From an uncultured Caulobacteraceae bacterium (GTDB lineage: Bacteria; Pseudomonadota; Alphaproteobacteria; Caulobacterales; Caulobacteraceae): a stretch of DNA of 33,701 bases. The stretch is taken from positions 1 through 33,701 of the forward strand of contig CAIXWN010000122.1 in assembly GCA_903923135.1 (NCBI GenBank). Direction: 5' to 3'. How positions within the stretch are numbered: position 1 is the stretch's first letter; each line of letters opens with the position of its first letter. The notes beneath the pieces are model-generated. The model did not search any database. It saw only the letters and a program-made list of their open reading frames with translations, and had not been told where the DNA came from. The position numbers were made by a program, and so were the translations under genes. Below, in pieces: positions 189 to 19,086 of this stretch.

Positions 189-1463
189 GTGGCCTGGAGC
201 ACCCCCGACATCTCGCGTGTCACCGACGCCCTCAGCGACCTGCTCACCCAGGCCCTGGCCGACGCGGTCAACCCGCCGCTGAGCATTCCCCACTTCACCG
301 TCAAGATGAGCCTCTCCAGCCCGGAGATCGCCCGCGGCGAGGCGCCCTGCCAGCTGACCCTCTATCTGATGCACGTCGGCCGCGACCCCACCTGGCGCAA
401 CACCCCCGCCGCGGGGCCCCGCCCGCAGCTGAACACCGCCCAGCCCCTCAGCCTCAACCTCTACTATCTGCTCACCGCCTGGGCCGGCCCCGACTACACC
501 AGCGAGCAGCGCGCGATGACCATCGCCCTGCAGGCCTTCCACACTCGCCCCGTCTATCGCCTGCCGCCGACCAACGACGAGGTGACCATCACCGTCGAGG
601 CCGACACCATCGAGGAGATGAGCCGACTGTGGCAGGCCTTCACCGTGCCCATGCGGCTCTCCTGCGTGGTCAAGGTCGGGGTGGTCTTCGTCACCCCGGC
701 CCTGCTGGCGCCCAAGCCGCAGCCGCCGCCGGTCACCGCCAACCTCGCCGTCGGTCCGACCCCCGGCGCCGGCGACCCGCCGGTGCTCTACGCGGCGATG
801 AACCTCGCCTTCGCCCCCTATCCGCCGCCGGCCGATCCGGCCCTGCAGACCGTCTCCGGCGGCGAGTTGGTCGCGGTCGGCGGCAGCAACATCGTGCTGC
901 GGGGCGCGGGTCTCGACCAGGCCGCCGCCGCCCAGGTCTTCCTCTCCACCGCCGACGGCCTCACCGAATGGCGTATCACCGCCGCGCCGGCGTGGCGCAC
1001 GGGCGCGGCCTCGCCGGGCGAGCTGGCTCTCACCCTGCCGGTCGCCTACGTCAATCCCGCCAGCGGCGCCCCGGCGCCGCCCGCCCGGACCCCGGCCCCC
1101 GGGGTCTATCGCCTGTCCGTCGGCCGCAACGTCCCGGCGCCCAAGGTGCGCAGCAACACCGTTCCCCTGACCGTCGCCGCGCGGATCGACAGCCTCGCGG
1201 CGCCGCCCACGCCGGGCGCCCACTACACCCTCGCCGGCGCCGGCTTCGCCACCGCCCCGGGCGCCACCACCGTCAGCCTGGGGGCCATCCCGCTGGCCCC
1301 CTCCGGGGCCGCCTCGCCGCCGCCGGGTCGTTTCCACGTGGCCGCGGGCGGCGCGTCTATCGCCTTCACCCTGCCGGCGATCCTGCCGCCCCCGGGGACT
1401 TATCCCATCGGGGTGGTTGTCAACGGCGTGCCCTGCCTGCCCGGCTTCACGGTGACCCTGTGA
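189..1463 (+). CDS. DUF4255 (Pvc16 N-terminal-like) eCIS cap/terminator protein
   Basis: This is a 424-aa protein started by GTG six bases after the previous stop. Residues 1-180 match the DUF4255/Pvc16_N pattern: an early ISRVTDALSDLL helix, the segment PCQLTLYLMHVGRDPTWRN, then LNLYYLLTAW. Members of this family cap the sheath-tube complex of eCIS and related phage-tail-like particles. Residues from about 215 to the end are Gly/Ala/Pro-rich beta segments resembling two IPT/TIG Ig-like modules, for example SGGELVAVGGSNIVLRGAGL near residue 225 and a second near residue 345. The stop codon overlaps the GTG of the ATPase gene. Cap-protein plus AAA+ ATPase is a hallmark pair of eCIS, which separates this locus from an ordinary prophage tail. 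Family assignment is strong; the exact structural role is by analogy. Confidence 0.88.
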   Translation: MAWSTPDISRVTDALSDLLTQALADAVNPPLSIPHFTVKMSLSSPEIARGEAPCQLTLYLMHVGRDPTWRNTPAAGPRPQLNTAQPLSLNLYYLLTAWAGPDYTSEQRAMTIALQAFHTRPVYRLPPTNDEVTITVEADTIEEMSRLWQAFTVPMRLSCVVKVGVVFVTPALLAPKPQPPPVTANLAVGPTPGAGDPPVLYAAMNLAFAPYPPPADPALQTVSGGELVAVGGSNIVLRGAGLDQAAAAQVFLSTADGLTEWRITAAPAWRTGAASPGELALTLPVAYVNPASGAPAPPARTPAPGVYRLSVGRNVPAPKVRSNTVPLTVAARIDSLAAPPTPGAHYTLAGAGFATAPGATTVSLGAIPLAPSGAASPPPGRFHVAAGGASIAFTLPAILPPPGTYPIGVVVNGVPCLPGFTVTL

Positions 1464-3484
1464 CCGTCGTCGCCGTGCTCAGATCCGACCCCTCCGCCGC
1501 CGCCCCGGCCGCGATGCGGCCCGCCGCCGCCCTGGTCCTCGACCTCGCCCGCCTGCGCGCCCGCCGCCTGGTCCTCTGGCAGGAGGAGGTCTGGCGGGCC
1601 GGACGCTCCAGCCCCGACCAGGGCCTGGCGATCACCGCCGGCGAGGTCGCCTGGCTGCTCGCCGGCGACGAGGCCGCCCGCCACGAGACCGGCTTTCTCG
1701 CCGCCCATCCCGAGGCCGCCGCCCTCGAGCGGACGATCCGCGACACCGAGGCCGCCCTGGCCGCCGACGGCGCCTGGGCCACCCTGACCGGGTCCTTCGA
1801 TCTCGACCTGGCCGAGGCCGACCTGCTGGTCCTGCTGGCGGCGGCCGAGATCGACCCGGGCCTGCAGCGGGTGTTCGCCTACCTCCACGACGACAGCCGC
1901 CTGACCCAGCCCTCGGCAGGCCTGTCCCGCCGCCTGGCGCGCCGCCCGGGGTCCGTCTGGACCGGCGAGGCCCTGCGCCGCTGGCGCCTGGCCTCGCCCC
2001 TCGACGATCCTTCGCCCCTGGCCCTGACCGCGCCCTGGCGGATCGACCCGGCGGTGATGACCGCCCTTCACCACGGCGACTGGCGCGATCCCCGCCTGGC
2101 CGGCGCCGTCAACCTGATCACGGGGGCCGATCTGGCGGGAACCCTGCCGCTCCACGCTGCGGCCCAGGCCGGTCTGGCCGCCTGCGCCGACCTGCGGGAG
2201 GTCGAGCTGACCGGGCCGCCGGGCATCGGCCGCCAGACCCTGGCGGCGCGCCACGCGCAGAGCTGCGGAGGGCCGCTGTTGTCCGCGGATGTCCCGCTGC
2301 TGCTCGCTCAGGGCCTGGAACCGCGCGACCTTGTCACCCTGGTGCTGCGTCAGGCCCGCTTCTGCCGGGCCCTGGCCTATTTCCGCGACGCCGACGCCGT
2401 CCCCGCGGCCGAGTGGGACCTCGCCCGGCGGCTGGGCGTCGACTACCTGCGCGGCGTCCGTCTGCCATCCGCGGCCGGCGCCGAAGTCGCCCTGCCGCCC
2501 CTGGCCCTGGCCGAGCGCCTGCAGCTTTGGACCGCCCGGCGGAGCGATCCGGCCCCCTCGGCCCTGTTCACCCACCGCCTGACCCCGGCCGAGGTCCGCC
2601 GGCTCGCCGACGCCCGGCCCGGCGAGACCGCGCGCATCGGCGGTCGCCGTCCCGACCACGCGCTGCTCTCCCGGCTGCCGTGCCCCTATGACTGGGACGA
2701 CCTGGTCCTGCCCCCCGACATCGCCCGTCAGCTGCGGGAGTTCGCCGACCAGGTCCGCCTGCGCTGGAGCGTCTACGACGACTGGGGGTTCGGCCGCCTG
2801 GCTCACCTGGGCTTCGGCATATCGGCCCTGTTCGGCGGCCCCAGCGGCGCCGGCAAGACCATGGCCGCCCAGGTCATCGCCCGCTCGCTTGGCCTCGACC
2901 TCTATCGCGTCGACCTCGCCGGTGTGGTCAACAAATATATCGGCGAGACCGAGAAGCGCCTGCGCGAGGTGTTCGACGCCTGCGAGCACGCCGGCGCCCT
3001 GCTGTTCTTCGACGAGGCCGACGCCCTCTTCGGCGCCCGCATGCAGGTCAAGGACGCCCATGACCGCTTCGCCAACATCGAGACCAACTATCTGCTGCAG
3101 CGCATCGAGAGCTTCGACGGCGTCGCCATCCTGGCCACGAACCGCCGCAATGACATCGACCAGGCCTTCGTGCGGCGCCTGCGCTTCGTCATCGAGTTCA
3201 TGGCCCCCCGGGCCGACGAGCGACTGACGCTCTGGCGCCGGGCCCTGCCGTCGCATGCGCCGGGCGGCGAGCCTCTGCTGGACGACATCGACTGGCGCCT
3301 GCTCGCCGATCGGCTGGAGATGACCGGGGCGGAGATCAAGAACACCGTTCTGGCCGCCGCCTTCCTGGCCCGGGCCGAGGGCGAGCGCATCGGCATGCGC
3401 CATCTGCTCGGCGCGGCGCAGCGCGAACTGGCCAAGCAGCGCGGGAAACTGCCGGTCACCCTCAGAGAGGCCGCGGGCGCATGA
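1460..3484 (+). CDS. Tandem AAA+ ATPase of the injection system (Pvc15-like)
   Basis: I place the start at GTG 1460, which gives a GTGA overlap with the preceding stop and a 674-aa product. The open frame continues upstream inside the DUF4255 gene, but that part is an antiphase shadow. The C-terminal AAA+ module is intact: Walker A GPSGAGKT at 460-467, Walker B LLFFDEAD at 514-521, a sensor-1-like AILATNRR and an arginine-finger-like RRLRF further on. A degenerate first module precedes it, with GPPGIGRQT at 252-260 (the Walker A Lys is Arg) and LAYFRDAD at 305-312 in place of Walker B. ATPases of this type accompany every well-studied eCIS and are thought to act in assembly or cargo handling in the producing cell. 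The stop overlaps the ATG of the next gene. Confidence 0.9.
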   Translation: MTVVAVLRSDPSAAAPAAMRPAAALVLDLARLRARRLVLWQEEVWRAGRSSPDQGLAITAGEVAWLLAGDEAARHETGFLAAHPEAAALERTIRDTEAALAADGAWATLTGSFDLDLAEADLLVLLAAAEIDPGLQRVFAYLHDDSRLTQPSAGLSRRLARRPGSVWTGEALRRWRLASPLDDPSPLALTAPWRIDPAVMTALHHGDWRDPRLAGAVNLITGADLAGTLPLHAAAQAGLAACADLREVELTGPPGIGRQTLAARHAQSCGGPLLSADVPLLLAQGLEPRDLVTLVLRQARFCRALAYFRDADAVPAAEWDLARRLGVDYLRGVRLPSAAGAEVALPPLALAERLQLWTARRSDPAPSALFTHRLTPAEVRRLADARPGETARIGGRRPDHALLSRLPCPYDWDDLVLPPDIARQLREFADQVRLRWSVYDDWGFGRLAHLGFGISALFGGPSGAGKTMAAQVIARSLGLDLYRVDLAGVVNKYIGETEKRLREVFDACEHAGALLFFDEADALFGARMQVKDAHDRFANIETNYLLQRIESFDGVAILATNRRNDIDQAFVRRLRFVIEFMAPRADERLTLWRRALPSHAPGGEPLLDDIDWRLLADRLEMTGAEIKNTVLAAAFLARAEGERIGMRHLLGAAQRELAKQRGKLPVTLREAAGA

Positions 3485-4438: not shown

Positions 4439-4717
4439 ATGTTCGCCGCCAACAGCCGCTACTACGGACTGGGAACCTACACGGTGAAGCTGCCCGGCGG
4501 TCGCACCGTCAGCGCCACCCAGCTTCCCCTGGCCCGTCCAGGGCCGCTGCTCGGATATCATCCCCGGGTCGCCGGCGATCGCCTGGACCTGCTTGCGGCG
4601 CGCTATCTGAACGAGCCGACCTGGACGTGGAAGCTGTGCGACGCCAACGGCTCGCCGTCCCCCGACGCCCTGATCGCCCGGCCGACCATCGGCATTCCGC
4701 GAGGCGGCGGGCGCTGA
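4439..4717 (+). CDS. LysM/gpX-like small baseplate protein
   Basis: This is a 92-aa protein with a clear ribosome-binding site (GGAGAGGA at 4427-4434). The C-terminal half GDRLDLLAARYLNEPTWTWK, then LCDANG and PTIGIP, is the pattern of phage tail protein X and compact LysM modules, which bind the tube or baseplate hub rather than cell wall in this setting. The N-terminal 40 residues form a short beta-rich lead (YTVKLPGGRTVSATQLPLA). In Photorhabdus and Serratia particles this domain is part of one Pvc7/Afp7 polypeptide; here it is separate. The stop TGA (4715-4717) shares a base with the ATG of the next gene. Confident as a real gene; family by pattern. Confidence 0.82.
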   Translation: MFAANSRYYGLGTYTVKLPGGRTVSATQLPLARPGPLLGYHPRVAGDRLDLLAARYLNEPTWTWKLCDANGSPSPDALIARPTIGIPRGGGR

Positions 4718-5835
4718 TGGCCAGCACGTTCGACATCCTGATCGCCGGAACGCCGGCCTCCGACTTCGACACACGGCTCGTCGAACTGGAGGTCGAGGAG
4801 AACGTCGATCTGCCGAGCGCCTTCCGCCTGACCCTGCCGGTGAGTCTGACATCGTCGGGCGACTACGACACGGTTTCGGACGCCCGTCTCGGGCCGCAGT
4901 CCAACATCGCCATCACCGCCCAGGCCGCCGACGGCAAGACGCACTGCCTCATCGACGGCTATGTGCTGGCCCAGGACATCCACCTCGATACGGGCACCTC
5001 GACCAGCAAGGTCAAGGTGTCAGGCCAGGACGCCAGCTGGCTGATGAACATGACCGAATCGGTCCGCGAATGGGCCGACGTCACCGACGGCGCGGCGGCC
5101 AACACCCTCTTCGGCGAATATGGCCTGACCCCGGATCCGCGCAATCTGGACAATGACTCCTCTGTCTACAGCGCCGACACCGCCAGCCTGATGCAGCGCG
5201 CCACCGACGCCCAGTTCCTGCGCACCCTCGCGCGCCGGTCCGGCAAGCTCTTCCGGGTGTTCTGCACCGATACGCCGGGCCAGCGGACCGGCCTGTTCGC
5301 CGCCCCGTCGATCGGCGGCAGTCCGGACGTCATCCTGACCCTCAACCCGGCCGACGCGGCCAACATCGGACCGCTGGACATCTCCTGGGACGTCATGCGG
5401 CCCAGCGCCGTGAGCGCCCAGCAGTTGCTGTTCACCGACGCCAGCGGGCAGGCCGCCGGCGGCGACAACAGCGACTCGGGGCTGACGGGGCTGGACGCCA
5501 CGGGTCTCGCGACGTTCGCCGGCTCGCCGGTGAAGACCATCCTGACGACCTCGGCCTCCGACGCCGTGACCCTGACTCAGCGGGCCCAGGCGGTCCTGCA
5601 GGAGTCGGGCTGGTTTGTCCGCTGCGAAGGCTCGACCGACGCCGCCCGCCTGGGCGCGATTCTGCGCGCCGGCGCCGTGGCCCAGGTGAACGCCGCCGGA
5701 TCGCTCCACTCCGGCTCCTATTTCGTCTGGAGCGTTCGCCATCACATCACCGCCGACAAGCACGAGATGAAGTTCGTTCTGGTGCGCAACGCGGTCGGCG
5801 CTGCGGCGACCGGCGCGCCGGCGGTGGGGCCATGA
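4717..5835 (+). CDS. gpD/VgrG-like baseplate hub protein (Pvc8 N-terminal type)
   Basis: The frame is open further upstream, but I start at ATG 4717 because it sits in a TGATG junction with the LysM-like gene and the protein then begins MASTFDILIAGTPASDFD, as hub proteins of this family do. Length is 372 aa. Early strands (VELEVEENVDLPSAFRLTLP) form the first beta-barrel-like domain of phage late-control protein D. Residues about 160-200 (QFLRTLARRSGKLFRVFCTD) match the conserved helix of the family. The C-terminal part (SGSYFVWSVRHHITADKHEMKFVLVRNAVG) is the usual end. It forms the trimeric hub holding the spike; the gp5/OB part is encoded by the next gene, overlapping by four bases. Confidence 0.88.
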   Translation: MASTFDILIAGTPASDFDTRLVELEVEENVDLPSAFRLTLPVSLTSSGDYDTVSDARLGPQSNIAITAQAADGKTHCLIDGYVLAQDIHLDTGTSTSKVKVSGQDASWLMNMTESVREWADVTDGAAANTLFGEYGLTPDPRNLDNDSSVYSADTASLMQRATDAQFLRTLARRSGKLFRVFCTDTPGQRTGLFAAPSIGGSPDVILTLNPADAANIGPLDISWDVMRPSAVSAQQLLFTDASGQAAGGDNSDSGLTGLDATGLATFAGSPVKTILTTSASDAVTLTQRAQAVLQESGWFVRCEGSTDAARLGAILRAGAVAQVNAAGSLHSGSYFVWSVRHHITADKHEMKFVLVRNAVGAAATGAPAVGP

Positions 5836-6338
5836 ACGACGCCCTGGTCCTCGACCTGCTGGAGCGGGTGAAACACCGTTACTACGGCAAGTATCGCGGT
5901 GTCGTCGTTGACGTCGACCCCACGACCATGCGCCTCAAGGCCTCGGTGCCCGACATCCTGCTGGGGTCGCCCACGGGCTGGTGCATGGCCTGTGTGCCCT
6001 ACGCCGGCCCGGGGGTGGGCTTCGCCATGCTGCCGGCAGTGGGCAGCGGTGTCTGGATCGAGTTCGAGAAGGGCGAACTGTCGCTGCCGATCTGGGTGGG
6101 CTGCTACTGGCGCACCGGCGAAACGCCGCCCACAGCGTCGGCGACGACCCGGGTTGTGGCGACCGATGCGGGGTCTCTGACCTTCGATGACCAGGCCGCC
6201 ACCGTCACCCTGGCCGACAAGGCCGGCGACAGTGTCGCGCTCACCGGCGGCGCCGTCACCATCACCTCGGGCAAGGGCAAGATCGTCGCCGACGCCACCG
6301 GGGTCACACTCAACGATTCCTCCCTGGTTGTGACCTGA
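5832..6338 (+). CDS. gp5/gpV-like spike protein with OB-fold
   Basis: The 168-aa product starts at ATG 5832 in an ATGA overlap. Residues about 10-100 (YYGKYRGVVVDVDPTT, LGSPTGWCMACVPYAGPGVGF, SGVWIEFEKGELSLPIWVG) form the OB-fold typical of phage baseplate assembly protein V and VgrG gp5 domains. Residues about 105-168 are short repeated beta turns (GSLTFDDQAATVTLADKAGD and on), consistent with a trimeric beta-helical needle. No lysozyme or C-terminal effector domain is attached, so the needle is short. It should sit on the gpD-like hub and carry the PAAR-like tip encoded next. Confidence 0.88.
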   Translation: MNDALVLDLLERVKHRYYGKYRGVVVDVDPTTMRLKASVPDILLGSPTGWCMACVPYAGPGVGFAMLPAVGSGVWIEFEKGELSLPIWVGCYWRTGETPPTASATTRVVATDAGSLTFDDQAATVTLADKAGDSVALTGGAVTITSGKGKIVADATGVTLNDSSLVVT

Positions 6339-6658
6339 TGCCCGGCCTGCTGACCACCGCCAGCACCCTGATGTGTCCGCACGGCGGAACGGTGATGGCG
6401 ACGCCCGGAGCGAGCCAGGCGGTGGCCGACGCGGTGATCCTGCGCAGTTCCGACAGCTTCTCCATCGTCGGCTGCCCGTTCCAGGTCTCCGGCGCGCCGC
6501 AGCCGTGCACCACGGTCCTGTGGGTCTCCACCGCCCAGAAGGTCCGGCACGCGGGCGATTTCGTTCTGACCGAGGCCAGCGTCGGCCTGTGCCTGGGGCC
6601 GGCGCCGCAGGGCACGGTCCTGGTCTCGGCCACGCAGAGCCAGGTGAGCGGCCTATGA
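6338..6658 (+). CDS. PAAR-like spike-tip protein
   Basis: This is a 106-aa protein in a TGATG junction with the spike gene. It has the features of PAAR-like/DUF4280-type tip proteins: short, beta-rich, Gly-rich, with candidate metal ligands C13 and H15 (in TLMCPHGG), C46 (in VGCPF) and C57. Classic PAAR tips use three His and one Cys; here the set would be Cys-rich. Position directly after the gp5-like spike and before gp25 is the expected place for the sharpening tip (Pvc10-like). The family call is based on motif spacing and context; the metal site is inferred. Confidence 0.75.
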   Translation: MPGLLTTASTLMCPHGGTVMATPGASQAVADAVILRSSDSFSIVGCPFQVSGAPQPCTTVLWVSTAQKVRHAGDFVLTEASVGLCLGPAPQGTVLVSATQSQVSGL

Positions 6659-7041
6659 TCCGTCACGACATCGCCCATCCGTTCGCCATCGACGCCGGGT
6701 CCGGCCAGGCGGCCCAGGCGGCCTATCAGGATCATGTCGACCAGATGATCCGCCAGGTCCTGCTGACCGATCCGGGCGAGCGGGTCTGCCTGCCGACGTT
6801 TGGCGCCGGCCTGCGCCGGCTGCTCTTCGCGCCCCTGTCGGCCCAGTTGCAGTCGACTACGAGGATGATCGTCACCCAGGCGCTGCACACCTGGCTGGGC
6901 GACCAGATCACGGTGCAGACGGTCACCGTCGACACCCCGATCAGCGCGCCAGGCCTCCCGGAAGGAACGATCCTGGTCACGGTCGGCTACGTGCTGATCG
7001 AGACCCAGTCCGTCCGCCAGACCCAGGTTCAGGTGATTTAG
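6655..7041 (+). CDS. gp25-like baseplate wedge protein (GPW/gp25 family)
   Basis: Starts at ATG 6655 in an ATGA overlap; 128 aa, the usual size for gp25/Pvc9. The central region DQMIRQVLLTDPGERVCLPTF, then GAGLRRLLFAP, matches the GPW_gp25 signature: a helix, L-T-xPGER, and FG-G-L--LLF-P. The helix MIVTQALHTWL and the strand VTVGYVLI follow as in the family. gp25 proteins nucleate sheath polymerisation at the baseplate and are among the most conserved parts of contractile machines. One base separates its stop from the next start. Confidence 0.92.
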   Translation: MIRHDIAHPFAIDAGSGQAAQAAYQDHVDQMIRQVLLTDPGERVCLPTFGAGLRRLLFAPLSAQLQSTTRMIVTQALHTWLGDQITVQTVTVDTPISAPGLPEGTILVTVGYVLIETQSVRQTQVQVI

Positions 7042-9391: not shown

Positions 9392-11829
9392 CCTTTCCCG
9401 TCTGTCCCTGCGACGGGGATGCGCCCGCCATGCCGGTCAATCCACCGCAGCAGGACCACATCGCGTTCCGGTCCGGCGATTTCGCGACGTTTCGCCGCGC
9501 GGTTCTGACGCCAGTGGCGGGCGAGCGCTCGTTGACTGCCTGGCGACCACAGGGCCAGGGCGACCTGGCGGTCATGATGGCCGAATGGTTCGCCTACCTC
9601 GGCGATATCCTGACCTTCTATGACGAGCGCATCGCCAACCAGGCCTATCTGCGCACGGCCGATCTGGACGCCAGCGTCCGTCGCCTGATCCAGGTCCTGG
9701 GCTATCGTCCGCGGCCGGCGATCGGCGCCACCGGGGTGCTTGCGGCGCTCGTCACCGCCGGACAGAGCACGGTCTTGCCGCGTGGCCTGCAGATCCAGAG
9801 CAAGCCCGGTCCGGGTCAGGCTCCGCAGACCTTCGAACTGTCGGCGGACACGACGATCGGCCCTCCCGACCAGGTCGCCGCCACGCTGCCGCCGAGCCTG
9901 CTGGCCCCGATCAGTGATTTCCGCTTCCTCTACCTCAGCCTGGGCCTCGAATACGCCGCGCCGGCGGGCCTTCACGGCAAGTTCCGTCGCGCGGGCGGGA
10001 GCTATCATCCGGTTCCGATCGGTTTCGGCGCGTCCGCCGCCAACTACGGCCTGCTGCTGCAGGGCGCGGTAACGACGGTCGATCCCGGCGCCCGGCTGCT
10101 GCTGCGCCCCCGTGACTCCGCGCTCGGCCCGCCGATGCTGGCGACCGTCACCCAGGCGACGATCCAGCCCGCCCCCGGCGGCGGCCAGCAGACCTCCCTG
10201 GCTCTGGACATCGCCGCCACGCCGCCCGCGTCGCTCGCCGCCGTTGAGGCCAGCCTGGAACGTCCAAACCAGACCGCCAGCCTGTGGAGCCTCTACGCCG
10301 GCGGCGCCGAGGGCAAGACGCTGCACCTGTCCAGTCTGACGCGTCAGGTGCGGCCCGGCGCCTGGATCCTCATCACCGGCCCGGCCTTCCCCGCCTTCCT
10401 GGCCAAGGTCAGCGCCACGGCCGACGCCATCTGGGACGCCAACAGCCCCGCGGTCACGGACCATCCCCTTCCGATCCCGCATACGGTCCTGACCCTGGCG
10501 GCGTCGCCGTCGGGCGGCTGGCCGAGCGACCTTGGCGACCTCAGCGTGGCGTTCGACTGGATCAGTGTCGGCAAGCTGCTCGATCAGCCCCCGAGCGCCT
10601 GGAGCGGGACCCCCACGGCCCTGGTCGCCGCCGGCCCGGCGCGCTTCCCGGTCACCGGCGGCGCGCAGGTTCTGGTGCAGGACGGCAGCGGGGCTGGGGT
10701 GCTGGCCACGGCCAGTTCGGCGGGTGATTTCAACCTGCAACTGGGCGGTTTCGCCGCTCCGACGGCCACGCTGCAGCCTCCGCTCTCGGTCCTGTACAAT
10801 CCGTTGCCGGTGACCCGAGGCAAGACGATCTCCCGCGAGATCCTCGGCGGCGGTGACGCCACCCGGCCCGGCCAGAGCTTCACCCTGGCCCAGTCGCCGG
10901 TGACCTACCTGCAAAAGGGCGCCGCGTGGGCGAGCACCGTCGCCGTGACGGTCAATGGCGAGCCGTGGACCGAGGTCGCCAGCTTCTACGGTCAGGGCCG
11001 GGACGTCCAGGTCTTCGTCACCCGCGAGGACGTTAACGGGCAGACGCACCTGGACTTCGGCGACGGCGTCAACGGCGCGCGTTTGCCCACCGGGGTGAAC
11101 AATGTGGTGGCGACCTATCGCATCGGCGCCGGAGCCGCCTCGCCCCCGGCCGGTAAGCTGACGGTGATCGCCCAGTCGTTCCCCGGACTTCGGGCCGTTC
11201 TCAACCCTGTCGCCGTCGGCGGGGGCGCCGAAGCGGACCCGCCGGACCAGATCCGCCGCTACGCGCCCCGCTCCGTGCTGGCGTTCGGCCGCGCCGTTTC
11301 GGTGTTCGACTATGAGGCGCTGGCCGCCCAGGCGCCGGGCGTCGGCCGGGTCCGCGCCGTCTGGGCCTGGAACGATCTGCGTCAGCGCACTCTGGTTACG
11401 GTCTATGTCGGCGACGACGCCGCAGCGGTCGCGTCGGCCCGGGCCGTCCTGGCCGCGGCCGGAGATCCCAATCGCCCCGTGCAGGTGCTGCAGGCGGCCG
11501 CCGTCCCGGTCAGGCTGACGCTCAGCCTCCTGGTGGCGACCGGCTGGGACGCCGATGCGATCGTCGCCCAGGTCATCGCGGCCCTGGTCGATCCGGCCCG
11601 GGGGGTGTTCTCCAGTCGGAACCTCCCCGTCGGACGGCCGGTCTTTGATAGCCAGATCGAACGCGCCGTTCTGGAGGTTCCCGGGACGGTGGCGCTGACG
11701 GCGGCCGGGTTCACCGCCGACGACCTTCCCGACGCGGGGCCGATTCATGCGCCCGGCGAGGGCGGGTACTTCGACCTCGCCGTTTCGGACATCAACATCG
11801 TCACGGAGGCGGACTGCCATGGCGGATGA
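9388..11829 (+). CDS. Baseplate J-like wedge protein 2 (Pvc12-like)
   Basis: This is an 813-aa protein and a distant paralogue of the preceding one. Residues about 48-125 (DLAVMMAEWFAYLGDILTFY, RTADLDASVRRLIQVLGYRPRPAI) are the same core helix pattern. Residues from about 540 (HLDFGDGVNGARLPTGVNNV) and 615 to the end (IRRYAPRSVLAFGRAVSVFD, YEALAAQAPGVGRVRAVWAW) are the gpJ-like region. Contractile baseplates commonly pair two gp6/J-like subunits, so the two tandem genes likely form the heteromeric wedge. The middle is larger and more variable than in protein 1. The C-terminal coding bases overlap the next gene's start by 11 bases. Confidence 0.9.
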   Translation: MTFPVCPCDGDAPAMPVNPPQQDHIAFRSGDFATFRRAVLTPVAGERSLTAWRPQGQGDLAVMMAEWFAYLGDILTFYDERIANQAYLRTADLDASVRRLIQVLGYRPRPAIGATGVLAALVTAGQSTVLPRGLQIQSKPGPGQAPQTFELSADTTIGPPDQVAATLPPSLLAPISDFRFLYLSLGLEYAAPAGLHGKFRRAGGSYHPVPIGFGASAANYGLLLQGAVTTVDPGARLLLRPRDSALGPPMLATVTQATIQPAPGGGQQTSLALDIAATPPASLAAVEASLERPNQTASLWSLYAGGAEGKTLHLSSLTRQVRPGAWILITGPAFPAFLAKVSATADAIWDANSPAVTDHPLPIPHTVLTLAASPSGGWPSDLGDLSVAFDWISVGKLLDQPPSAWSGTPTALVAAGPARFPVTGGAQVLVQDGSGAGVLATASSAGDFNLQLGGFAAPTATLQPPLSVLYNPLPVTRGKTISREILGGGDATRPGQSFTLAQSPVTYLQKGAAWASTVAVTVNGEPWTEVASFYGQGRDVQVFVTREDVNGQTHLDFGDGVNGARLPTGVNNVVATYRIGAGAASPPAGKLTVIAQSFPGLRAVLNPVAVGGGAEADPPDQIRRYAPRSVLAFGRAVSVFDYEALAAQAPGVGRVRAVWAWNDLRQRTLVTVYVGDDAAAVASARAVLAAAGDPNRPVQVLQAAAVPVRLTLSLLVATGWDADAIVAQVIAALVDPARGVFSSRNLPVGRPVFDSQIERAVLEVPGTVALTAAGFTADDLPDAGPIHAPGEGGYFDLAVSDINIVTEADCHGG

Positions 11830-14137
11830 CGGCTATGTCGCCTGGTATCAGGCCAGGCTCTGGCAGCTTCTGCCGGGGGTCTATCGGTCGCTCGACACGC
11901 CCGACGGGGCCGGCCCGCTGCGCGAGATCGTCGACCGGATCGGCGGCGAACTGGCCACTCTGCGGCGGGGCATGGACCGCCTCTGGGCCAACCAGTCGAT
12001 CGAGACCTGCGATGACTGGGCCATCCCCTACATCGGCGACCTGTTGGCCACGCGGCTGGTTAGTTGCATGGACGCCCGCGCCCAGCGGGTCGACGTGGCC
12101 AAGACCATCTACTACCGGCGCCGGAGCGGCACGCTTGGCCTGCTCGAGGAACTGGCCGCCGACATCGCCGGTCGGGACGCGCGGGCCGTGGAGTTCTTCC
12201 GCCGCTTGGGACGCACGCGCCACCAGTTCGATCCCGCCATCCGACTCGACCCGCCGGGCGGGCCGCCGGCGTCGGCCATCGTCGAGGGATTGATCGGCGC
12301 CAGTTCGGGCTCGCCGGCCGGCGGCTTCGCCGATCTGCGAAACCGCTACGCCGCGGGCAACAGCGGCGGCCCGTTCGACGAATTCGCCCACACCGCCGAT
12401 CTTCGCCGCGGCGGCCAGTCCAGCGGCTGGCACAACATCTCGCACCTGGGCGTGTTCATCTGGTGGCTCTACGCCCACCCGATCGCCGGGGCGACGCCGG
12501 TGAGCAACGGGCAGCCCAGCCCATGCTTCTCGTTTGATCCCTCCGGGCGGCGGGTTCCGCTGTTCGCCCGCTCCAACCGCAACGGCTCCGGGGCGGCCAC
12601 CGGCTATGGCGAGGACTGGCTGTCTCCGGACGAGTGGGATCTGCCCGGGCGGATACGGGAGAGCCTGTGGAAAGCCTATCCGGACGCCCTCTATCCGGTG
12701 TCTCTGGCCGTGGAACTCGGGGGCGGCGCCGCGCCCGCCCCTCTGCCGAGAAGCGATCTGACGGTCCATCCCGAGCGCGGCCTTTTCAGCTTCACCGGCG
12801 CCCCGCCGGATGGCCAGTTGGTGACCGCCTGTCACTTCGGCTTTTCCTCACGGATCGGCGCCGGCGGCTTCGACGAGCGCATCCTGGAGAAACTCGAGCA
12901 GCCGGCCCTCCTTGCAACCGTCGGCGGCGGCGCCGGCCTGGATGCGGCCCTCGCGGCCGTCACCCAGTCCGGAACCGTGGAGATCGCCGATTCCCTGACC
13001 TATCCCGGCGTCGCGGCCGATCTGACGCTGCCGCCCGCGCCGACGCCCCCTGCCGCGAGCGTGGTGCAGCTGCGGGCCCGCAACGCCCAGCGCCCGGTGA
13101 TCCGCTGGGCCGGCGGAGGCGCGACCTGGACGATCACCGGGAACGGCGGCAGCCTGATCCTTCAGGGCCTCTGGCTCCAGGGGGCCGATCTGGTCCTGGC
13201 CGGCCGGTTCGACACCGTCCGCCTGCGCGTGATGACCCTCGACCCGGGAACAGCCGGGCAGGGCGGGCCCCTCTTCGACGACGCCATCGATGGCATGCCC
13301 CTGGCGCCGACCACCCTTTGGATCGAGGGGACCGTGCAGACCCTGATCCTGGAACGATGTGTCACCGGCCCGGTGCGCACACGCAACGGCGGAGCGGTGG
13401 AGACCCTGTCCGCCACCGACTGCATCATCCAGGGCCTGGCGGGTCACGCCATCGAACCGTCGGCGCCCATTCTTGACCCTGCGGCTCTGGCCGAGGCCTG
13501 GAAGGCGCAGAGCGACCCGACGTCCGCGGCGATTGTCGCGACGCTGCCGCAGGCCGTGCTCGATGACCTGGCGGCCTATTGGCCCGGCGCCGCCCCGCCC
13601 GCCGGCCTCGTCGCCGGCATGGCCACAGCGCTAGCCGGCCTGGACCGGGCGGCCATGGAGACGGCCTATCCCCTGGCGCTGGCCGATCTGGCGCTGGGCG
13701 CGTCGAGCGGAGAGGTGCAGCTGGCGCGCTGCACGGTGCTTGGCCGCACGGCCGCCCACCGCCTCAGCGCCAGCGAGTGCATCCTCGACGAGGTGGCCCA
13801 GGTCGAGGACAGCCAGCACGGCTGCGTGCGCTTCAGCGCCTACGCTGATGGCAGCCGGCTGCACGCACCCTTTCGGTCAGTGCGGGTTCCCGCGCGTGGT
13901 CCGATGTTCCGCAGTCGCCGGTTCGGCGAGCCCGACTACGCCCGTCTCTATCGACTGGCGGACGCCGCGATCCTGGGCCGGCAGGCCGGCGACAGCATCC
14001 TGGCCGGAGCCCGAAATGAATCCGAGATGGGGGCCTTCGCTCTCGAGGCCATTTCCCTGAAGCGGCGCGGTCTGGCGCTGAAATACGAAGAGTACACACC
14101 GCTCGGCGTCTATCCGGTGTGGATAGATGCAGACTAG
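11819..14137 (+). CDS. Tail-protein-I-like wedge protein with long C-terminal beta-helix-like extension
   Basis: I use ATG 11819 (MADDGYVAWYQARLWQLLPG), inside the end of the previous gene, because the tail-protein-I signature begins at once. The product is 772 aa. Residues about 10-140 (LPGVYRSLDTPDGAGPLREI, LWANQSIETCDDWAIPYIGD, KTIYYRRRSGTLGLLEELA) match the phage tail protein domain that follows the J-like genes in such loci. From about residue 400 the sequence becomes short strands and turns (VIRWAGGGATWTITGNGGSL, LILERCVTGPVRTRNGGAVE, GEVQLARCTVLGRTAAHRLS), suggesting a right-handed beta-helix. That would make it a baseplate protein with a built-in fibre or surface-binding part. N-terminal call strong; C-terminal fold inferred. 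Confidence 0.82.
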   Translation: MADDGYVAWYQARLWQLLPGVYRSLDTPDGAGPLREIVDRIGGELATLRRGMDRLWANQSIETCDDWAIPYIGDLLATRLVSCMDARAQRVDVAKTIYYRRRSGTLGLLEELAADIAGRDARAVEFFRRLGRTRHQFDPAIRLDPPGGPPASAIVEGLIGASSGSPAGGFADLRNRYAAGNSGGPFDEFAHTADLRRGGQSSGWHNISHLGVFIWWLYAHPIAGATPVSNGQPSPCFSFDPSGRRVPLFARSNRNGSGAATGYGEDWLSPDEWDLPGRIRESLWKAYPDALYPVSLAVELGGGAAPAPLPRSDLTVHPERGLFSFTGAPPDGQLVTACHFGFSSRIGAGGFDERILEKLEQPALLATVGGGAGLDAALAAVTQSGTVEIADSLTYPGVAADLTLPPAPTPPAASVVQLRARNAQRPVIRWAGGGATWTITGNGGSLILQGLWLQGADLVLAGRFDTVRLRVMTLDPGTAGQGGPLFDDAIDGMPLAPTTLWIEGTVQTLILERCVTGPVRTRNGGAVETLSATDCIIQGLAGHAIEPSAPILDPAALAEAWKAQSDPTSAAIVATLPQAVLDDLAAYWPGAAPPAGLVAGMATALAGLDRAAMETAYPLALADLALGASSGEVQLARCTVLGRTAAHRLSASECILDEVAQVEDSQHGCVRFSAYADGSRLHAPFRSVRVPARGPMFRSRRFGEPDYARLYRLADAAILGRQAGDSILAGARNESEMGAFALEAISLKRRGLALKYEEYTPLGVYPVWIDAD

Positions 14138-14154
14138 AGGCAAGGATACACGCC

Positions 14155-16968
14155 ATGGCCAGTGATCGCGCCCGGATCAGCTTCGATCCAACCCGCGACT
14201 ATCGCGCTGTCGTCGCCCAGCAGGGTCGCGTGACGCTTGAGGCTGATGTCAATGAGGCCTCCGTCCTCCAGAGCGAGGCCCTGCGCCTGGAAACCATCGA
14301 TATCGTCGGCCCGGCGGGCACGCCGGACAATGGCTACGCGGTGACGCCCGGGGGCAGTGCTGACCAGAGCGTGGTGGCGGCCGGGATCTACTATCTCGGC
14401 GGCTGGCGCCTGTCGCTGGTTCACGACGTAACCATCGGCGCCCAGCCGGACTGGCTGGACCGGCCTGCGCCGTCGGAGAACCAGGGTGGAAACAGCGTCG
14501 TCAGTCTGCTCCTGACCGAACAGAGCGTCGGCGCCGTGGAGGATCCGGCGCTGCGCGAGGTGGCCCTGGGCGGGCCGGACTCCGCGGCCCGGTTGCGCCT
14601 CATGCAACACATCCTGGTGCTGCCCATGGACGGGGCGACCTGCGCCGACGGCGCCGCCCGGGCGGCCAGCGCGCTCGCCGCCGACGGCGTGAGTCTCGAC
14701 CCCTACAGCTATGAGTTGCTGTCAGGAGCCACGCTGCAGGTCGGCTTCACCCCAGGCGGCCCGCCCCCCGACGCCTGCAGCCCCGCCGCGGCGGGGGGCT
14801 ATCTGGGGGCTGACAACCAGCTGATCCGCGTCACCGTCAGCGCCTTCGATCCCAAGGCCAACACCGGCGCTCTGCTGTGGGGCTGGAACAACGCCTCGAT
14901 CCTGTATCGGGCCGCTTTCACCGACAAGGTTGCCGGCGTGCTGACGTTGGCCGGCGCGCCGCTCGATCAGGAACACGCTCCACAACTGGGCCAGGCGGTG
15001 GAAATCCTGCGCAGCCGCGCCGACCTGGGCGACGGCGCCTATGTCGCGGCGGATTCCGGCTTCGTGACCACGGTGACGCAAGCCTATTCCTTCGACACGG
15101 GGACCCTGACCGTCGCCGACATCGCCGATCTGCCTCCCGAATATCTGACCGATCCCAATCCCCTGTTTGTCAGGCTGTGGCAGGGGATCGCGCCGTTCAC
15201 CGCCGGTCAGCCGGCGCCGCTGGACACGGTCAGCGGACTGACCGTCACCGTCAGTCTGAAGGCGCTTCCCGGCCAGATCGCCGCCAGGCCGTTCTGGCGG
15301 TTCGCCGTGCGCCCGGACACGCCGGTGCAGGTCTATCCGGCAAGGTATCTGCAGGCGCCCCAACCGCCGGACGGGCCGCGCCAATGGCTGTGCGACCTGG
15401 CCGTCGTCGGCGGGGTCGGCGACGGACTGGGGCTGCTGGCCGACTGTCGGCCGACCTTCACCGCCCTGACCGAGCAGACCGGCGGCTGCTGCGGCCTGAC
15501 CCTCGACCCGGCCGGCGTGCAGGCGCGCGGCGGGCTGCAGGCGGTGGTCGACTCCCTTGCCGGCGGTCCCGCCGTGCTCTCGCTCAAGTCCGGAACCTAT
15601 CCCCTGTCGGCGCCGCTGGTGCTCACCGCCCGCCATGGCGGGTTGACCATCGAGGGCTGCGCGGCCGGCGTCATCTTCAGAGCGGCGGGCGAAGGCCTCG
15701 CTGTCTTCGCCTTCGGCCTGGTGATCGTCGACGCCGCCGTGGCTGTCGCTGTCCGGGGCGTCGCCTTCGACGTGCCGTTCACGCCTGCGGTCGGGGCGGC
15801 GACGACGGGCGGGCAGGGCGGCGTGGTCGTCGGGCTTCTGGCGGTCAACACCACCCGGCTGACCATTGAGGATTGCCGCTTCAGTATCCGCGACGTCGCC
15901 CCCGGCGCCTTCGGCGGGGGAGTGACCGTTCTGGGGCGGACGCTGGACCTGACCATCCGCGGTTGTGTCTTCCGGGGGGCTGCGGTGGTGGACGGGACGC
16001 TCGTCTGCGGCGTGATGGCCACGGTCAATGTCCAGACGGTCAGCACCTCGCTTAGCGAGATCGACATCACCGACAACGAGTTCCAGTCGCTGACCGCGGG
16101 TGTCTTCGCCTATGCGCGGTTGGGCGAGGTGCGCTGTGCAGGCAATCGGGTCCGGGGTTGCGTGACCGGATTCTATTTCGCAGACGTGCGTCTTGGCGCC
16201 GCCGGGGCGTTCGCCAAGCAGGCCCTGAACGCCGGACCGTCCGATGGCGGCAATCTCGGCCAACCTGTGCAGGCGGCCTTCAACGCGCCGTGGCTGGCAA
16301 TGAGCGCCCAGAGCCAGGCGCCATTCTTTGCCCGGGCGGCGCAGCCGGCGCCGGAGATCTCGCCGGTCGTTGACGAGGTTCTGCTTCAGGACGTCGCTTC
16401 CCGGGGCTCGGCCATCTACGACGAGATCGCCGGGCATGCCTCGGGCCTTCGTATGCGCATGACGGGCGAGCGGCCGGCCGCCGCCCAGGTCGCGCCAGGC
16501 CCGTCTCCCTACGCCGCGGCCTTGGATCAGGTGAACATCCTGTCGCTCGCGGCCGAGGTCGCGCCGGCTGTCGCGTCGACGGCGGCGCTCCATCTGCAGG
16601 ACAACGACATCACCCTGCTCAGCGCCGGGCCGAACGCCGCCCCGGGTGTCGGCGTCGGCGTGCTGTTCTCGCCCAAGGACGCCGGGGCCATGTTGCAGCT
16701 CAACGGCAACCGCATCCTCTGTCAGGACACGCGCACCTGCGCCGCGGCGGCGCTGTTTCCGGGCTTCGCCACGGTGACCGGCAATCTGCTGTTGCAGCCG
16801 GCGGGAATTCCGGGGGTGGCCGGCAGCGCCGCGTTGATTGTGCTCACCCTCGCGACGGCGTTGAGCGCCATCACCGGCAACGTCGTCCGCTCCGGCGCCG
16901 TGATACTGCCCGCCCGCATCGCGCCCGCGCCGACGGCGGACTGGTCCTTCTTCAACACCGAGGGCTGA
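14155..16968 (+). CDS. DUF6519-type protein with right-handed beta-helix (tail-fibre/spike candidate)
   Basis: The start at ATG 14155 is supported by the Shine-Dalgarno-like AGAGGCAAGGA at 14136-14146 and by the family's opening RARISFDPTRDYRAVVAQQG followed by RVTLEADVNEA. Length is 937 aa. Residues 1-440 hold the DUF6519-like region with repeated beta-sandwich segments. Residues about 440-685 are a clear right-handed beta-helix (TRLTIEDCRFSIRD, LDLTIRGCVFRGAAVV, ITDNEFQSLTAGVFAYARLG), and a second set of rungs appears at about 800-900 (LHLQDNDITLL, LQLNGNRILCQDTRTCAAAA). Such proteins lie after the tail-I gene in eCIS loci. The role is presumed to be surface attachment at the baseplate periphery. 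An enzymatic lyase role is possible, but no catalytic motif is evident. Confidence 0.8.
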   Translation: MASDRARISFDPTRDYRAVVAQQGRVTLEADVNEASVLQSEALRLETIDIVGPAGTPDNGYAVTPGGSADQSVVAAGIYYLGGWRLSLVHDVTIGAQPDWLDRPAPSENQGGNSVVSLLLTEQSVGAVEDPALREVALGGPDSAARLRLMQHILVLPMDGATCADGAARAASALAADGVSLDPYSYELLSGATLQVGFTPGGPPPDACSPAAAGGYLGADNQLIRVTVSAFDPKANTGALLWGWNNASILYRAAFTDKVAGVLTLAGAPLDQEHAPQLGQAVEILRSRADLGDGAYVAADSGFVTTVTQAYSFDTGTLTVADIADLPPEYLTDPNPLFVRLWQGIAPFTAGQPAPLDTVSGLTVTVSLKALPGQIAARPFWRFAVRPDTPVQVYPARYLQAPQPPDGPRQWLCDLAVVGGVGDGLGLLADCRPTFTALTEQTGGCCGLTLDPAGVQARGGLQAVVDSLAGGPAVLSLKSGTYPLSAPLVLTARHGGLTIEGCAAGVIFRAAGEGLAVFAFGLVIVDAAVAVAVRGVAFDVPFTPAVGAATTGGQGGVVVGLLAVNTTRLTIEDCRFSIRDVAPGAFGGGVTVLGRTLDLTIRGCVFRGAAVVDGTLVCGVMATVNVQTVSTSLSEIDITDNEFQSLTAGVFAYARLGEVRCAGNRVRGCVTGFYFADVRLGAAGAFAKQALNAGPSDGGNLGQPVQAAFNAPWLAMSAQSQAPFFARAAQPAPEISPVVDEVLLQDVASRGSAIYDEIAGHASGLRMRMTGERPAAAQVAPGPSPYAAALDQVNILSLAAEVAPAVASTAALHLQDNDITLLSAGPNAAPGVGVGVLFSPKDAGAMLQLNGNRILCQDTRTCAAAALFPGFATVTGNLLLQPAGIPGVAGSAALIVLTLATALSAITGNVVRSGAVILPARIAPAPTADWSFFNTEG

Positions 16969-16971
16969 CGG

Positions 16972-18165
16972 ATGTCCTACGCCGCGCACTCAGGCCGGGA
17001 CGCCCGGCGCGATCGCACCGCCGATCCCGATATCCGGTCCACGGCCGGTCCCGCGGCGGTCCGCAGGCCGTCCGGGGCGGGTAACCAGGCTCACCTTCGT
17101 GGCCTGGCGGCTGGCGGCGGACGCCTGCAGGCCAGGCTGGAGATCGGCCCGGTCGACCACCCGCTGGAGCGTGAAGCCGACGCCGTGGCCGACCATGTCA
17201 TGCGGCGCGCGACCGGGCCGGTCGGGGTAGCCGACGCCTCACCGCAACTCAGCCGCCGGTGCGCCGCGTGCGAGGCGGAGGCCGTCGCGGACCAGGACGC
17301 GACCCCCCTCGTGGCCCGGGCGACCGGAGGGGGGGGCCAGCCGCTCGACCCAGACACCCGGTCGTTCATGGAGAGCGGATTCGCGCGCGGTTTTGGCGAC
17401 GTCCGTGTCCATACCGGCGCCGAGGCGGCCCGGTCGGCGGAGGCCATCGGGGCCCGCGCCTTCACCGTGGGTCGAGATCTGGTGTTCGCGCACGGAGCCT
17501 ATCGACCGGGCCAGGACGAGGGCCGGCGTCTGCTCGCCCACGAACTGGCCCACACCGTCCAGCAGGGCGCGGCCGCCCCGATCTCAGTACAGCGCGACAC
17601 TGGCGCAGGCGGAGCGCCGACCGCCGGCCCCGGCGCAGGCGGCGCGCCAGGCGGTGCGCCGGCGACAAGCCGCAGTCTGACCGCCGCCGAACGGGCGACG
17701 GCCACGTCGATCTTCGGAACCGCGCTCAACCTCGATCCCATCGTCCTGGAGGAATCCGGCTGGAAGACCGCGGGCACACAGGGGGCGGGAGAGTACTACC
17801 GCACGGTGCCTGACAGAATTTACGTCCCGCCGGGAAAGCTGAGTTCCATCCCGACAAACATCCTGATGCATGAGCTGACTCACTGCACGCAATATCAGCA
17901 CGGGGTCTCGCGGGCCACGACGGCTTATTATGCCTTGAAAGGACAATATGACTATGGCGGGGAGGCCGGCCTGAACGATGCGATCGCCAAGAAGAAATGC
18001 TTCCTGAATTTCAACACCGAACAGCAGGGCGATATCGTCCAACATTACTACGAGCGCTCGGTGGCGGGCTCCGCCCTGCACCCCTGGAGTGTGTTCATCA
18101 ACCAGCTGCGCACCTGGAGCTGCGTCTGGCCGCCGGCGCCCGCGCCGGCTCCGGCCGCTCCATAG
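16972..18165 (+). CDS. DUF4157 protein with two HExxH motifs (putative eCIS cargo metallopeptidase)
   Basis: The 397-aa product starts three bases after the previous stop. It has an N-terminal basic, disordered stretch; GNQAHLR at 37-43; LEREADAVADHVM, the conserved DUF4157 lead; a CAACEAE motif near 95; and DUF4157 proper at about 124-197, including HELAH at 190-194. A Gly/Ala/Pro linker follows (about 205-225). The C-terminal domain (about 225-385) opens LTAAERATATSIFGTALN, carries a second HExxH (HELTH, 300-304) and later NFNTEQQGDIVQHYY, a pattern resembling 'vgr-related' metallopeptidase-like proteins. DUF4157 genes recur in eCIS loci, and toxins or maturation proteases have been proposed. 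It ends in a Pro/Ala tail. No signal peptide or membrane segment is seen. Function as cargo is inferred. Confidence 0.82.
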   Translation: MSYAAHSGRDARRDRTADPDIRSTAGPAAVRRPSGAGNQAHLRGLAAGGGRLQARLEIGPVDHPLEREADAVADHVMRRATGPVGVADASPQLSRRCAACEAEAVADQDATPLVARATGGGGQPLDPDTRSFMESGFARGFGDVRVHTGAEAARSAEAIGARAFTVGRDLVFAHGAYRPGQDEGRRLLAHELAHTVQQGAAAPISVQRDTGAGGAPTAGPGAGGAPGGAPATSRSLTAAERATATSIFGTALNLDPIVLEESGWKTAGTQGAGEYYRTVPDRIYVPPGKLSSIPTNILMHELTHCTQYQHGVSRATTAYYALKGQYDYGGEAGLNDAIAKKKCFLNFNTEQQGDIVQHYYERSVAGSALHPWSVFINQLRTWSCVWPPAPAPAPAAP

Positions 18166-18174
18166 TCGTCGGCG

Positions 18175-19086
18175 ATGACGGGTCCATCCCGGATCGGTGA
18201 CGTTCAGGCCGCCGATCCTTCGCGCCGTTCGGTACGGACGGCTTTGCGGGCTCCGGCGCCGCGTGACGCCGGGGTCGCCCAGCAGCCCGGGACACAAGTC
18301 GGCAATCAGGCCCATCTGCGCCTGGCCGCCATCTCCCCGCGTTTGCAGCGCGATGGACCGGACCCGCCGCTGCAGGAGGCGAAGAAGGAGGAGGCCACCG
18401 ACGCCTTCAAGGGCGGTCTGAAGGCCATGGGTAAGGCGGCCTTCGACGACCCGGCCATCAAGGCCTACGGGCTCGATTTCGCCAGCCGGCTCGCCAAGCC
18501 GATCTGGGACGGCGCGCAGGACGGCGACAAGGTCGCCATGGTCGCCGGCGGCCTGGCCATTGGCGGCGCCGGCCTGGCCGCCCTGGCCAGCAACCGGACC
18601 GGTCGCGGCGTCCTGTCCGGCGTTCCGCTGGGCGCGCCCCTGTCCCTGATCCCCTACGCGATCCTCAGCGGGTTCAGTTACGATCTGCCGAAACTGAAGA
18701 CCGACCCACTGGCGCTGCACTTCAGCGTCAAGGGCGACGATCTGATCGATCTGGCCCACCGCAAGCTCGGGGACTTTCCGCTGAAGTCACTGTCGGTGGA
18801 TTTCACGGTGTCCGTGGCTCCGGACGGCAAGGTGACGACCCCCTTCGTGCTGGCCAAGATCGGCGTCGCCAAGGGCCTCACCCTGGCTGGCGGCTACGGG
18901 GTGGCTACCGACCTGCCGACCCTCGTTTCGCCCGGCGACGGCGCCCCGCTTGCGCCCTACAAGGCCTTTCCGCAGCCCGACAAGGGCGCGCCGCCGGCCG
19001 GCGTGGCCGGATTCGTCAGCCTCGATCTGGCGCAGGCGATCCCGTCTCTCGGGGTGATCCTCGGCAACGGCCCGGAGAGACCCTGA
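18175..19086 (+). CDS. Unknown 303-aa protein, candidate eCIS cargo
   Basis: I do not recognise this family. It starts nine bases after the DUF4157 gene and closes the operon. The N-terminal 65 residues are basic, Ala/Pro-rich and probably disordered. They contain GNQAHLR at 43-49, identical to the motif in the upstream DUF4157 protein, and LQRD at 57-60. Charged residues 66-80 (EAKKEEATDAFKGG) lead to a helix, then a Gly/Ala-rich hydrophobic segment at about 120-138 (VAMVAGGLAIGGAGLAALAS) and another at about 150-167. The last 130 residues look beta-rich (LKSLSVDFTVSVAPDGKVTT). There is no N-terminal signal peptide. A membrane-active or membrane-inserting cargo is one reading; a structural accessory protein is another. 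Confidence 0.75.
   Translation: MTGPSRIGDVQAADPSRRSVRTALRAPAPRDAGVAQQPGTQVGNQAHLRLAAISPRLQRDGPDPPLQEAKKEEATDAFKGGLKAMGKAAFDDPAIKAYGLDFASRLAKPIWDGAQDGDKVAMVAGGLAIGGAGLAALASNRTGRGVLSGVPLGAPLSLIPYAILSGFSYDLPKLKTDPLALHFSVKGDDLIDLAHRKLGDFPLKSLSVDFTVSVAPDGKVTTPFVLAKIGVAKGLTLAGGYGVATDLPTLVSPGDGAPLAPYKAFPQPDKGAPPAGVAGFVSLDLAQAIPSLGVILGNGPERP

Follow-up and report, generated by a model that had tools for sequence, protein, structure and literature searches.

A GNQAHLR peptide common to two adjacent proteins of a contractile injection gene cluster, and the N-terminal leaders of DUF4157 proteins

Two neighboring proteins, A and B, encoded in a contractile injection (eCIS) gene cluster of an uncultured Caulobacteraceae bacterium share the peptide GNQAHLR near their N-termini, and this motif is rare across the genome. 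Protein A belongs to the eCIS_core (DUF4157) family (PF13699; 115.1 bits, cut-off 22). GN[QH][AT] elements recur ahead of the core in other DUF4157 proteins, and leaders of this type are also found on proteins that have no DUF4157 and that differ in their C-termini. We somewhat favor the view that GNQAHLR belongs to an N-terminal leader typical of DUF4157 proteins and separable from their core, and that the proteins bearing it, with or without the core, would be cargo of the contractile injection particle. Either the AAA ATPase or the spike/tube-initiator complex would recognize the leader when cargo is loaded, and the DUF4157 protein encoded next door would serve as an adaptor in trans, DUF4157 being usable in cis or in trans.

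The gene cluster and the shared peptide

The window, 33,701 bp long, is a complete contig from a draft genome of 4.64 Mb (279 contigs, 98% complete). The eCIS cluster fills its first half, with the genes of proteins A and B at its 3' end, separated by 9 bp (Table 1). Pvc16-type, ATPase, spike, gp25 and baseplate J genes are all present; as the contig begins inside the cluster, it shows no sheath or tube genes.

Table 1. Positions of the cluster genes and of the leader elements in the window
Feature	Position	Strand	Detail
Pvc16_N protein	189..1463	+	PF14065, E = 4.2e-28
AAA ATPase, candidate Pvc15-type loader	629..3484	+	PF00004, E = 8.9e-28
Spike/baseplate genes: GPD-like (below cut-off), gpV, gp25	4627..7041	+	Pfam
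Two Baseplate_J proteins	7043-9391 and 9388-11829	+	26 and 22.7 bits, cut-off 21.1
DUF6519 protein, directly 5' of the protein A gene	14119..16968	+	PF20129, E = 1.2e-15
Protein A (397 aa), with leader, eCIS_core (DUF4157) and a C-terminal part bearing a second HExxH	16972..18165	+	
GNQAHLR, protein A residues 37-43	17080..17100	+	
Protein A leader module LQARLEIGPVDHPLEREADAVADHVM, type IQxKLxIGxPxDxxExEADxVADxV	17122..17220	+	profile A7, E = 7.3e-15 (protein A is a row of A7)
eCIS_core (DUF4157) of protein A with HELAH, residues 124-200	17341..17571	+	PF13699, E = 1.6e-33 and 7.8e-31
VQRD, protein A residues 206-209, 3' of core	17587..17598	+	
Protein B, 303 aa, last gene of the eCIS cluster	18175..19086	+	
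GNQAHLR, protein B residues 43-49	18301..18321	+	
Protein B body, homologous to G210 eCIS-locus protein	18325..19050	+	residues 51-292, 30% identity, E = 3e-17
LQRD, protein B residues 57-60, leader/body boundary	18343..18354	+	aligns with VQKED of the G210 homologue

The zinc motif HExxH of the protein A core reads HELAH. A second HExxH (HELTH, near 17,869) lies in its C-terminal part, together with a match to the putative metallopeptidase family DUF6782 (PF20573) at residues 271-316 whose E-value of 6.9e-4 is below the family's cut-off. The region of residues 233-360 (17,668-18,051) resembles a 'vgr related protein' of a Sphingomonas parapaucimobilis plasmid (33%; E = 6e-6), and by this similarity the C-terminal domain of protein A may ride on a spike protein elsewhere. 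Protein A had no match in phage records.

The initial annotation had located GNQAHLR exactly in both proteins. It had described the remaining sequences as showing no obvious similarity, which is true only in part: the N-termini align by blastp with E = 0.001 when composition correction and masking are switched off, and the alignment reaches on to a common RLQ and a common GPxDxPL. Part of this score is due to composition, since the corresponding alignments scored as high in 12 of 2000 full-length shuffles and in 8 of 5000 N-terminal shuffles; because of the latter we restrict the claim to the motif alone.

Leaders of DUF4157 proteins with and without the core

We compared 104 distinct DUF4157 proteins, that of the window included, from Pseudomonadota, Bacteroidota, viral-collection contigs and plasmids. 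The 104-protein counts, like the within-locus N-terminal comparison below, leave out the short or repeated loci L076-L102, L123-L163, L172 and L068. GN[QH][AT] stands ahead of the core in eight of the 104, protein A among them, against 0.3 expected, and the reversed motif in none. A looser GN form was found in 13 of 76 proteins (1.44 expected), two of which (L054 and L080) look like chance. The suggestion that many DUF4157 proteins start with a GNQA-x-LR-like segment therefore applies to a minority.

The leaders are modular: their elements are GNQA, HDFxxIP, the module IQxKLxIGxPxDxxExEADxVADxV and repeated [VIL]QR, with HDFxxIP, a Cys cluster and FF repeats as further elements in some. In protein A and several others, GNQA precedes the stronger IQxKLxIGxPxDxxExEADxVADxV module, in which L5, E15, A18 and A22 are invariant in 30 rows. 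Of 37 DUF4157-bearing genomes, 29 contained this strongest module (profile A7), against none of 43 genomes without a DUF4157 match; the difference is largely circular, because the matches fall in open frames read as DUF4157 genes and several of the profile rows come from the same genomes, and it concerns the strong module and carries no information on GNQA alone. The DUF4157 protein of genome G210 (L037, 6908-10822) contains three tandem copies of the module (three A7 matches). The Cys cluster that stands ahead of the core in some leaders (such as RKCACG..C..C; L066, L073 and L199) is, from its sequence, a possible metal site.

A DNA pattern for GNQ[AT]xxR matched in all 22 DUF4157-bearing genomes searched, with forward and reverse counts mostly little above control. 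Among the matches listed, only three lay near a known DUF4157 match (two in the window and one in genome G627), and no other GNQ[AT]xxR within 30 kb of a DUF4157 match was found among them.

Five proteins with different C-termini carry a leader of the DUF4157 type and no DUF4157: L199, L206, L240, L241 and L243. L199, on a viral-collection contig, was found by a scan for GNQAVxRLL. Its 359-aa protein contains GNQAVQRLL, FDFSQIPLH and VQSKLTINRPGDNYEREADRVAAQLI, then a Cys-rich part and no core, and the next gene encodes a DUF4157 protein with GNQAVSRLL. The leader of the 359-aa protein matches the DUF4157 protein of L075 with E = 8e-27, and the protein had no match in PDB by sequence. L206 is protein WP_179069475.1 of Nostoc sp. 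C052; from its first residue to residue 223 it agrees at 169 of 225 positions (75%) with a DUF4157 protein from another plasmid of the same strain, and it diverges just before the core of this relative, which begins at residue 242. L240 and L241, from other Nostoc plasmids, likewise have the leader and lack the core. L243 (Pseudanabaena sp. ABRG5-3, WP_126391397.1) lies between two DUF4157 genes, with a gene whose annotation is tail assembly protein close by. Over 402 aligned positions the C-terminus of L243 has 52% identity to that of the DUF4157 protein of L067, in which the core is present, so that to judge by sequence the two are a natural pair without and with the core. The L060 leader is present in 17 plasmid records, of which nine were examined as DNA and the others as match rows. 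No annotated tail genes were found beside L206, L240 and L241 in the stretches examined.

L206, L240, L241 and L243 reached leader-module scores of 49-59 bits and the Gloeothece protein L242, which has mainly the linker part in common, a score of 7, the E-values being those of single-sequence searches. The mutual blastp matches of the five proteins all fall within the first 232 residues, which indicates that their C-termini are unrelated at this sensitivity. The idea of a portable N-terminal segment is supported for the DUF4157-type leader, since proteins without DUF4157 and with varied C-termini carry it; for protein B it is plausible on a thin basis. Since L206, L240, L241 and L243 lack GNQA and have other modules, portability is better documented for the leader than for GNQA.

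Within the loci themselves, the module seldom occurs without the core. Apart from weak matches, L034 was the only hit outside DUF4157 proteins or fragments of them in a leader-module search of 7923 ORFs. L034 (3860-4735) encodes a 292-aa DUF4157-less protein and sits within a series of four Flavobacteriaceae DUF4157 genes; its leader is degenerate, with the QPKL and QRK parts kept and the EAD residues lost. Similarity of N-termini within loci (2691 ORFs) was dominated by GC-rich composition; L034 was the sole usable top row, and protein B was absent from the top 30 rows.

GNQA itself was found on DUF4157-less proteins in protein B, in L199 and in the L105/L112 family. The proteins of L105 (G627) and L112 (G530) carry GNQAT directly 3' of DUF4157 genes with GNQQ and GNQM; this family is present in both searchable genomes, both of which supplied its profile. 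In an open test, GNQ[AT] occurred in 4 of 523 non-core ORFs of loci with a GN-type DUF4157 protein and in 5 of 2224 others (P = 0.07). A post hoc test limited to same-strand ORFs at most 150 bp away gave 4/19 versus 0/92 (P = 6e-4), to which we give little weight because it was the motif that led to the window and L199, and because L105 and L112 are related. The FF type taken alone showed no significant concordance (1/139 versus 1/2608; P = 0.099). These concordance tests also left out L184-L198, L200-L205 and L210-L239.

In viral contigs, GNQAVxRLL occurred in 19 stretches. Cargo-type loci among them are L193 (a repeat of L068), L197 (a repeat of L067) and L199, the last with two ORFs. The ORFs of L184, L186, L188, L191, L195 and L201 have no leader context, and eight stretches lie in no open frame of at least 60 aa. 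The GNQAVxRLL proteins of L192 and L202 are presumably DnaX-type clamp loaders, and the IVGNQAVVRLL of these ATPases is a look-alike caught by a naive GNQAV search. GDxYEQEADR and related patterns gave three and three stretches, corresponding to L197, L199, L193 and L205 (the contig of L066).

Protein B, its homologue and the competing readings

Protein B matches no family of Pfam (up to E = 1) or NCBIfam, PF13699 being absent, and has a third-position GC of 0.86. It lies at the 3' end of the cluster with a DUF4157 gene adjacent. Its N-terminus has a Kyte-Doolittle sum of -17.0 over the first 35 residues, a charge of +4 over the first 50 and no aromatics among the first eight. The GNQA element of the DUF4157-type leader is present and the IQxKLxIGxPxDxxExEAD module is absent, the sole A7 match in G000 at E <= 0.01 lying in protein A; the likeness of protein B to a leader therefore consists of the seven residues of GNQAHLR plus LQR. 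We infer that protein B may be cargo and that its GNQAHLR may be functionally the same leader.

A homologue of protein B was found in genome G210 with profile A2 (E = 0.0024 among 35 genomes and records). The same profile merged protein B with the L105/L112 family, wrongly: pairwise blastp shows no relation, and we therefore treat the two as separate families. Homologues of protein B were otherwise absent from 60 relatives, apart from the genome itself, and from viral contigs; plasmids gave one match only, at E = 1. None was found in 395 Bacteroidota, in a search run without a positive control, and among 250 genomes of the order of G210 the only one was G210 itself. The G210 homologue had no match in plasmids, and protein B had one match in PDB by sequence (E = 0.36).

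The homology between the two proteins begins just past GNQAHLR, at residue 51 of protein B. The G210 protein is encoded directly upstream of the G210 DUF4157 gene; it lacks GNQA and has the leader FFKP...FFKP...VQK, and the neighboring DUF4157 protein begins PFF...SFF...VQRK. The body of protein B is conserved and the leader differs, and in each locus the leader resembles that of the local DUF4157 protein. We treat this match to the local DUF4157 type as a lead from two loci, suggested by their sequences, and not as a result. The absence of GNQA from homologues elsewhere, which the initial annotation would have counted against a shared tag, counts against it by half: the single homologue lacks GNQA, yet its leader is like that of its DUF4157 neighbor.

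This arrangement is the basis of a further-reaching reading, which we regard as tentative and less likely than not. Each injection system would read its own leader type, an orthologous cargo would swap its leader between systems, and the DUF4157 core would be an adaptor in cis or in trans. Protein B, with GNQA beside a GNQA-type DUF4157 protein, and its homologue, with FFxP..FFxP..VQK beside an FF-type one, are what such a code would produce. Since the core would work in cis or in trans, leader proteins without DUF4157 would ride with the adaptor of a neighbor.

Somewhat less probable, and on balance doubtful, is an exchange of 5' ends, in which cargo genes trade their complete 5' ends, upstream region and start included, by recombination in the manner of polymorphic toxins, and the peptide itself would have no address function. 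L206 speaks for it, as its 75% identity to the DUF4157 relative takes in about 30 codons before the annotated start (7668-7757); either the start is annotated wrongly or the 5' region was swapped in one piece. However, proteins A and B share the peptide and not the DNA: six of the seven GNQAHLR codons differ, synonymously, and blastn-short finds no match longer than 15 bp between the genes and none at the motif, so the DNA is no recent copy although the peptide is identical. Furthermore, the leader modules diverge across phyla and keep their fixed positions, which also argues against such an exchange.

We consider it unlikely that the pair in the window is a coincidence in two Arg/Ala/Pro-rich N-termini, with the GNQAHLR of protein B unrelated to the DUF4157 leader. 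The motif is short, the homologue of protein B lacks it, and composition contributes to the alignment score. However, shuffled 100-aa N-termini of the two proteins had a common 7-mer at a rate of only 0.000265 (200,000 trials), and shuffled full proteins had one in 0.13% of 3000 trials. In the 4.64-Mb draft genome, the GNQAxLR DNA pattern had only two matches, in these two adjacent genes and at similar depth (the backward control pattern matched once). The GNQAVxRLL form in both genes of the L199 pair also argues against coincidence, though this pair was itself found by a scan for that form.

The initial annotation had further noted QRD in both proteins before the folded parts and had proposed it as a cleavage point. 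QRD is indeed present in both, which happened in 0.2% of 20,000 trials with shuffled proteins, but that of protein A follows the core and is therefore not ahead of all folded parts. In the alignment, the RLQ of protein B pairs with the RLQ at residues 51-53 of protein A, so the two QRDs are not equivalent. Among the 104 DUF4157 proteins, [VIL]QR occurs 98 times in 56 leaders (8.6 expected) and 63 times in 51 of the sixty-residue post-core stretches (3.9 expected), whereas [VIL]QRD occurs in no leader and in four post-core stretches. The repeated unit is [VIL]QR, the D is not conserved, and a cleavage point at QRD finds no footing. A processing tag, by which the DUF4157 zincin would cleave the leader and the [VIL]QR repeats and so mature itself and its neighbors, could draw on the HExxH of DUF4157 and on the excess of [VIL]QR in both places, but is very improbable given this near absence of [VIL]QRD, the PVC payload Pnf, described as loading with its signal peptide uncleaved (PMC11495950), and the growth inhibition by EAT Cgo1, reported as independent of metalloprotease motifs (PMC11297309).

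We therefore return to a leader that would be separable from the DUF4157 core and recognized during loading. The cargo choice of most contractile injection systems and the role of DUF4157 are questions that bear on this leader. As leader segments move between proteins, they may be an address label for cargo entry. Leaders with and without DUF4157 provide natural deletion pairs, such as L243 and L067, that separate the two functions, and the leader is a sequence handle by which cargo without DUF4157 can be found.

Comparison with known systems

Polymorphic toxins combine a constant N-terminal trafficking part with an exchangeable C-terminal domain. The proteins described here differ in that trafficking would presumably run via the contractile particle and in that the core between leader and C-terminal part may be absent. 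Among the papers listed by our literature searches, which covered few subscription journals or preprints, we recognized none that names the leader or describes GNQA in such a context.

The proposed leader and adaptor would fit the published accounts of PVC (PMC11495950) and of Sle2/Sle1 of Streptomyces lividans (PMC13277306), as far as their available text goes. In PVC, Pvc15-dependent loading is described as requiring N-terminal signal peptides, whose truncation abolishes it (PMC11495950). The cluster of the window resembles PVC and Afp in the apparently polar N-terminus of the putative cargo, the AAA ATPase and the position of the putative cargo genes at the 3' end. For the signal peptides of lineage Ia, homology is described as rare in an all-versus-all comparison, with groups appearing only in an identity heatmap (PMC11495950). 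Set beside this published description, available to us in part, the present leaders would differ in having recognizable sequence modules that recur across phyla in DUF4157 proteins.

In S. lividans, the DUF4157 protein Sle2 is reported to interact potentially with the tube initiator SlpT2 and to have bound the N-terminal region of its DUF4157-less neighbor Sle1, whose abundance drops on deletion of sle2 (PMC13277306). The likeness lies in a DUF4157-less effector encoded beside a small DUF4157 protein; the Sle1 N-terminus differs in being a large tape-measure-like coiled coil, and the available text mentions no common leader (PMC13277306). A DUF4157 effector of S. davawensis is described as co-eluting with the tip, along with tube-initiator and spike proteins (PMC11126660).

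DUF4157 in or beside toxins was reported by Geller 2021 (PMC8213781) and Danov 2024 (PMC11297309), and these toxins, as described in the available text, resemble the present case in having DUF4157 in the cargo or in its neighbor. The former suggested a role in loading, release, maturation or trafficking that was still to be studied (PMC8213781); the latter proposed a chaperone in cis or in trans, calling the function elusive (PMC11297309). The available text of Danov 2024 describes cargo N-termini as hydrophilic and basic, with an aromatic in the first eight residues, and reports finding no conserved signal peptide sequence (PMC11297309). Set against that account, the region ahead of DUF4157 is here itself portable and is found without the core.
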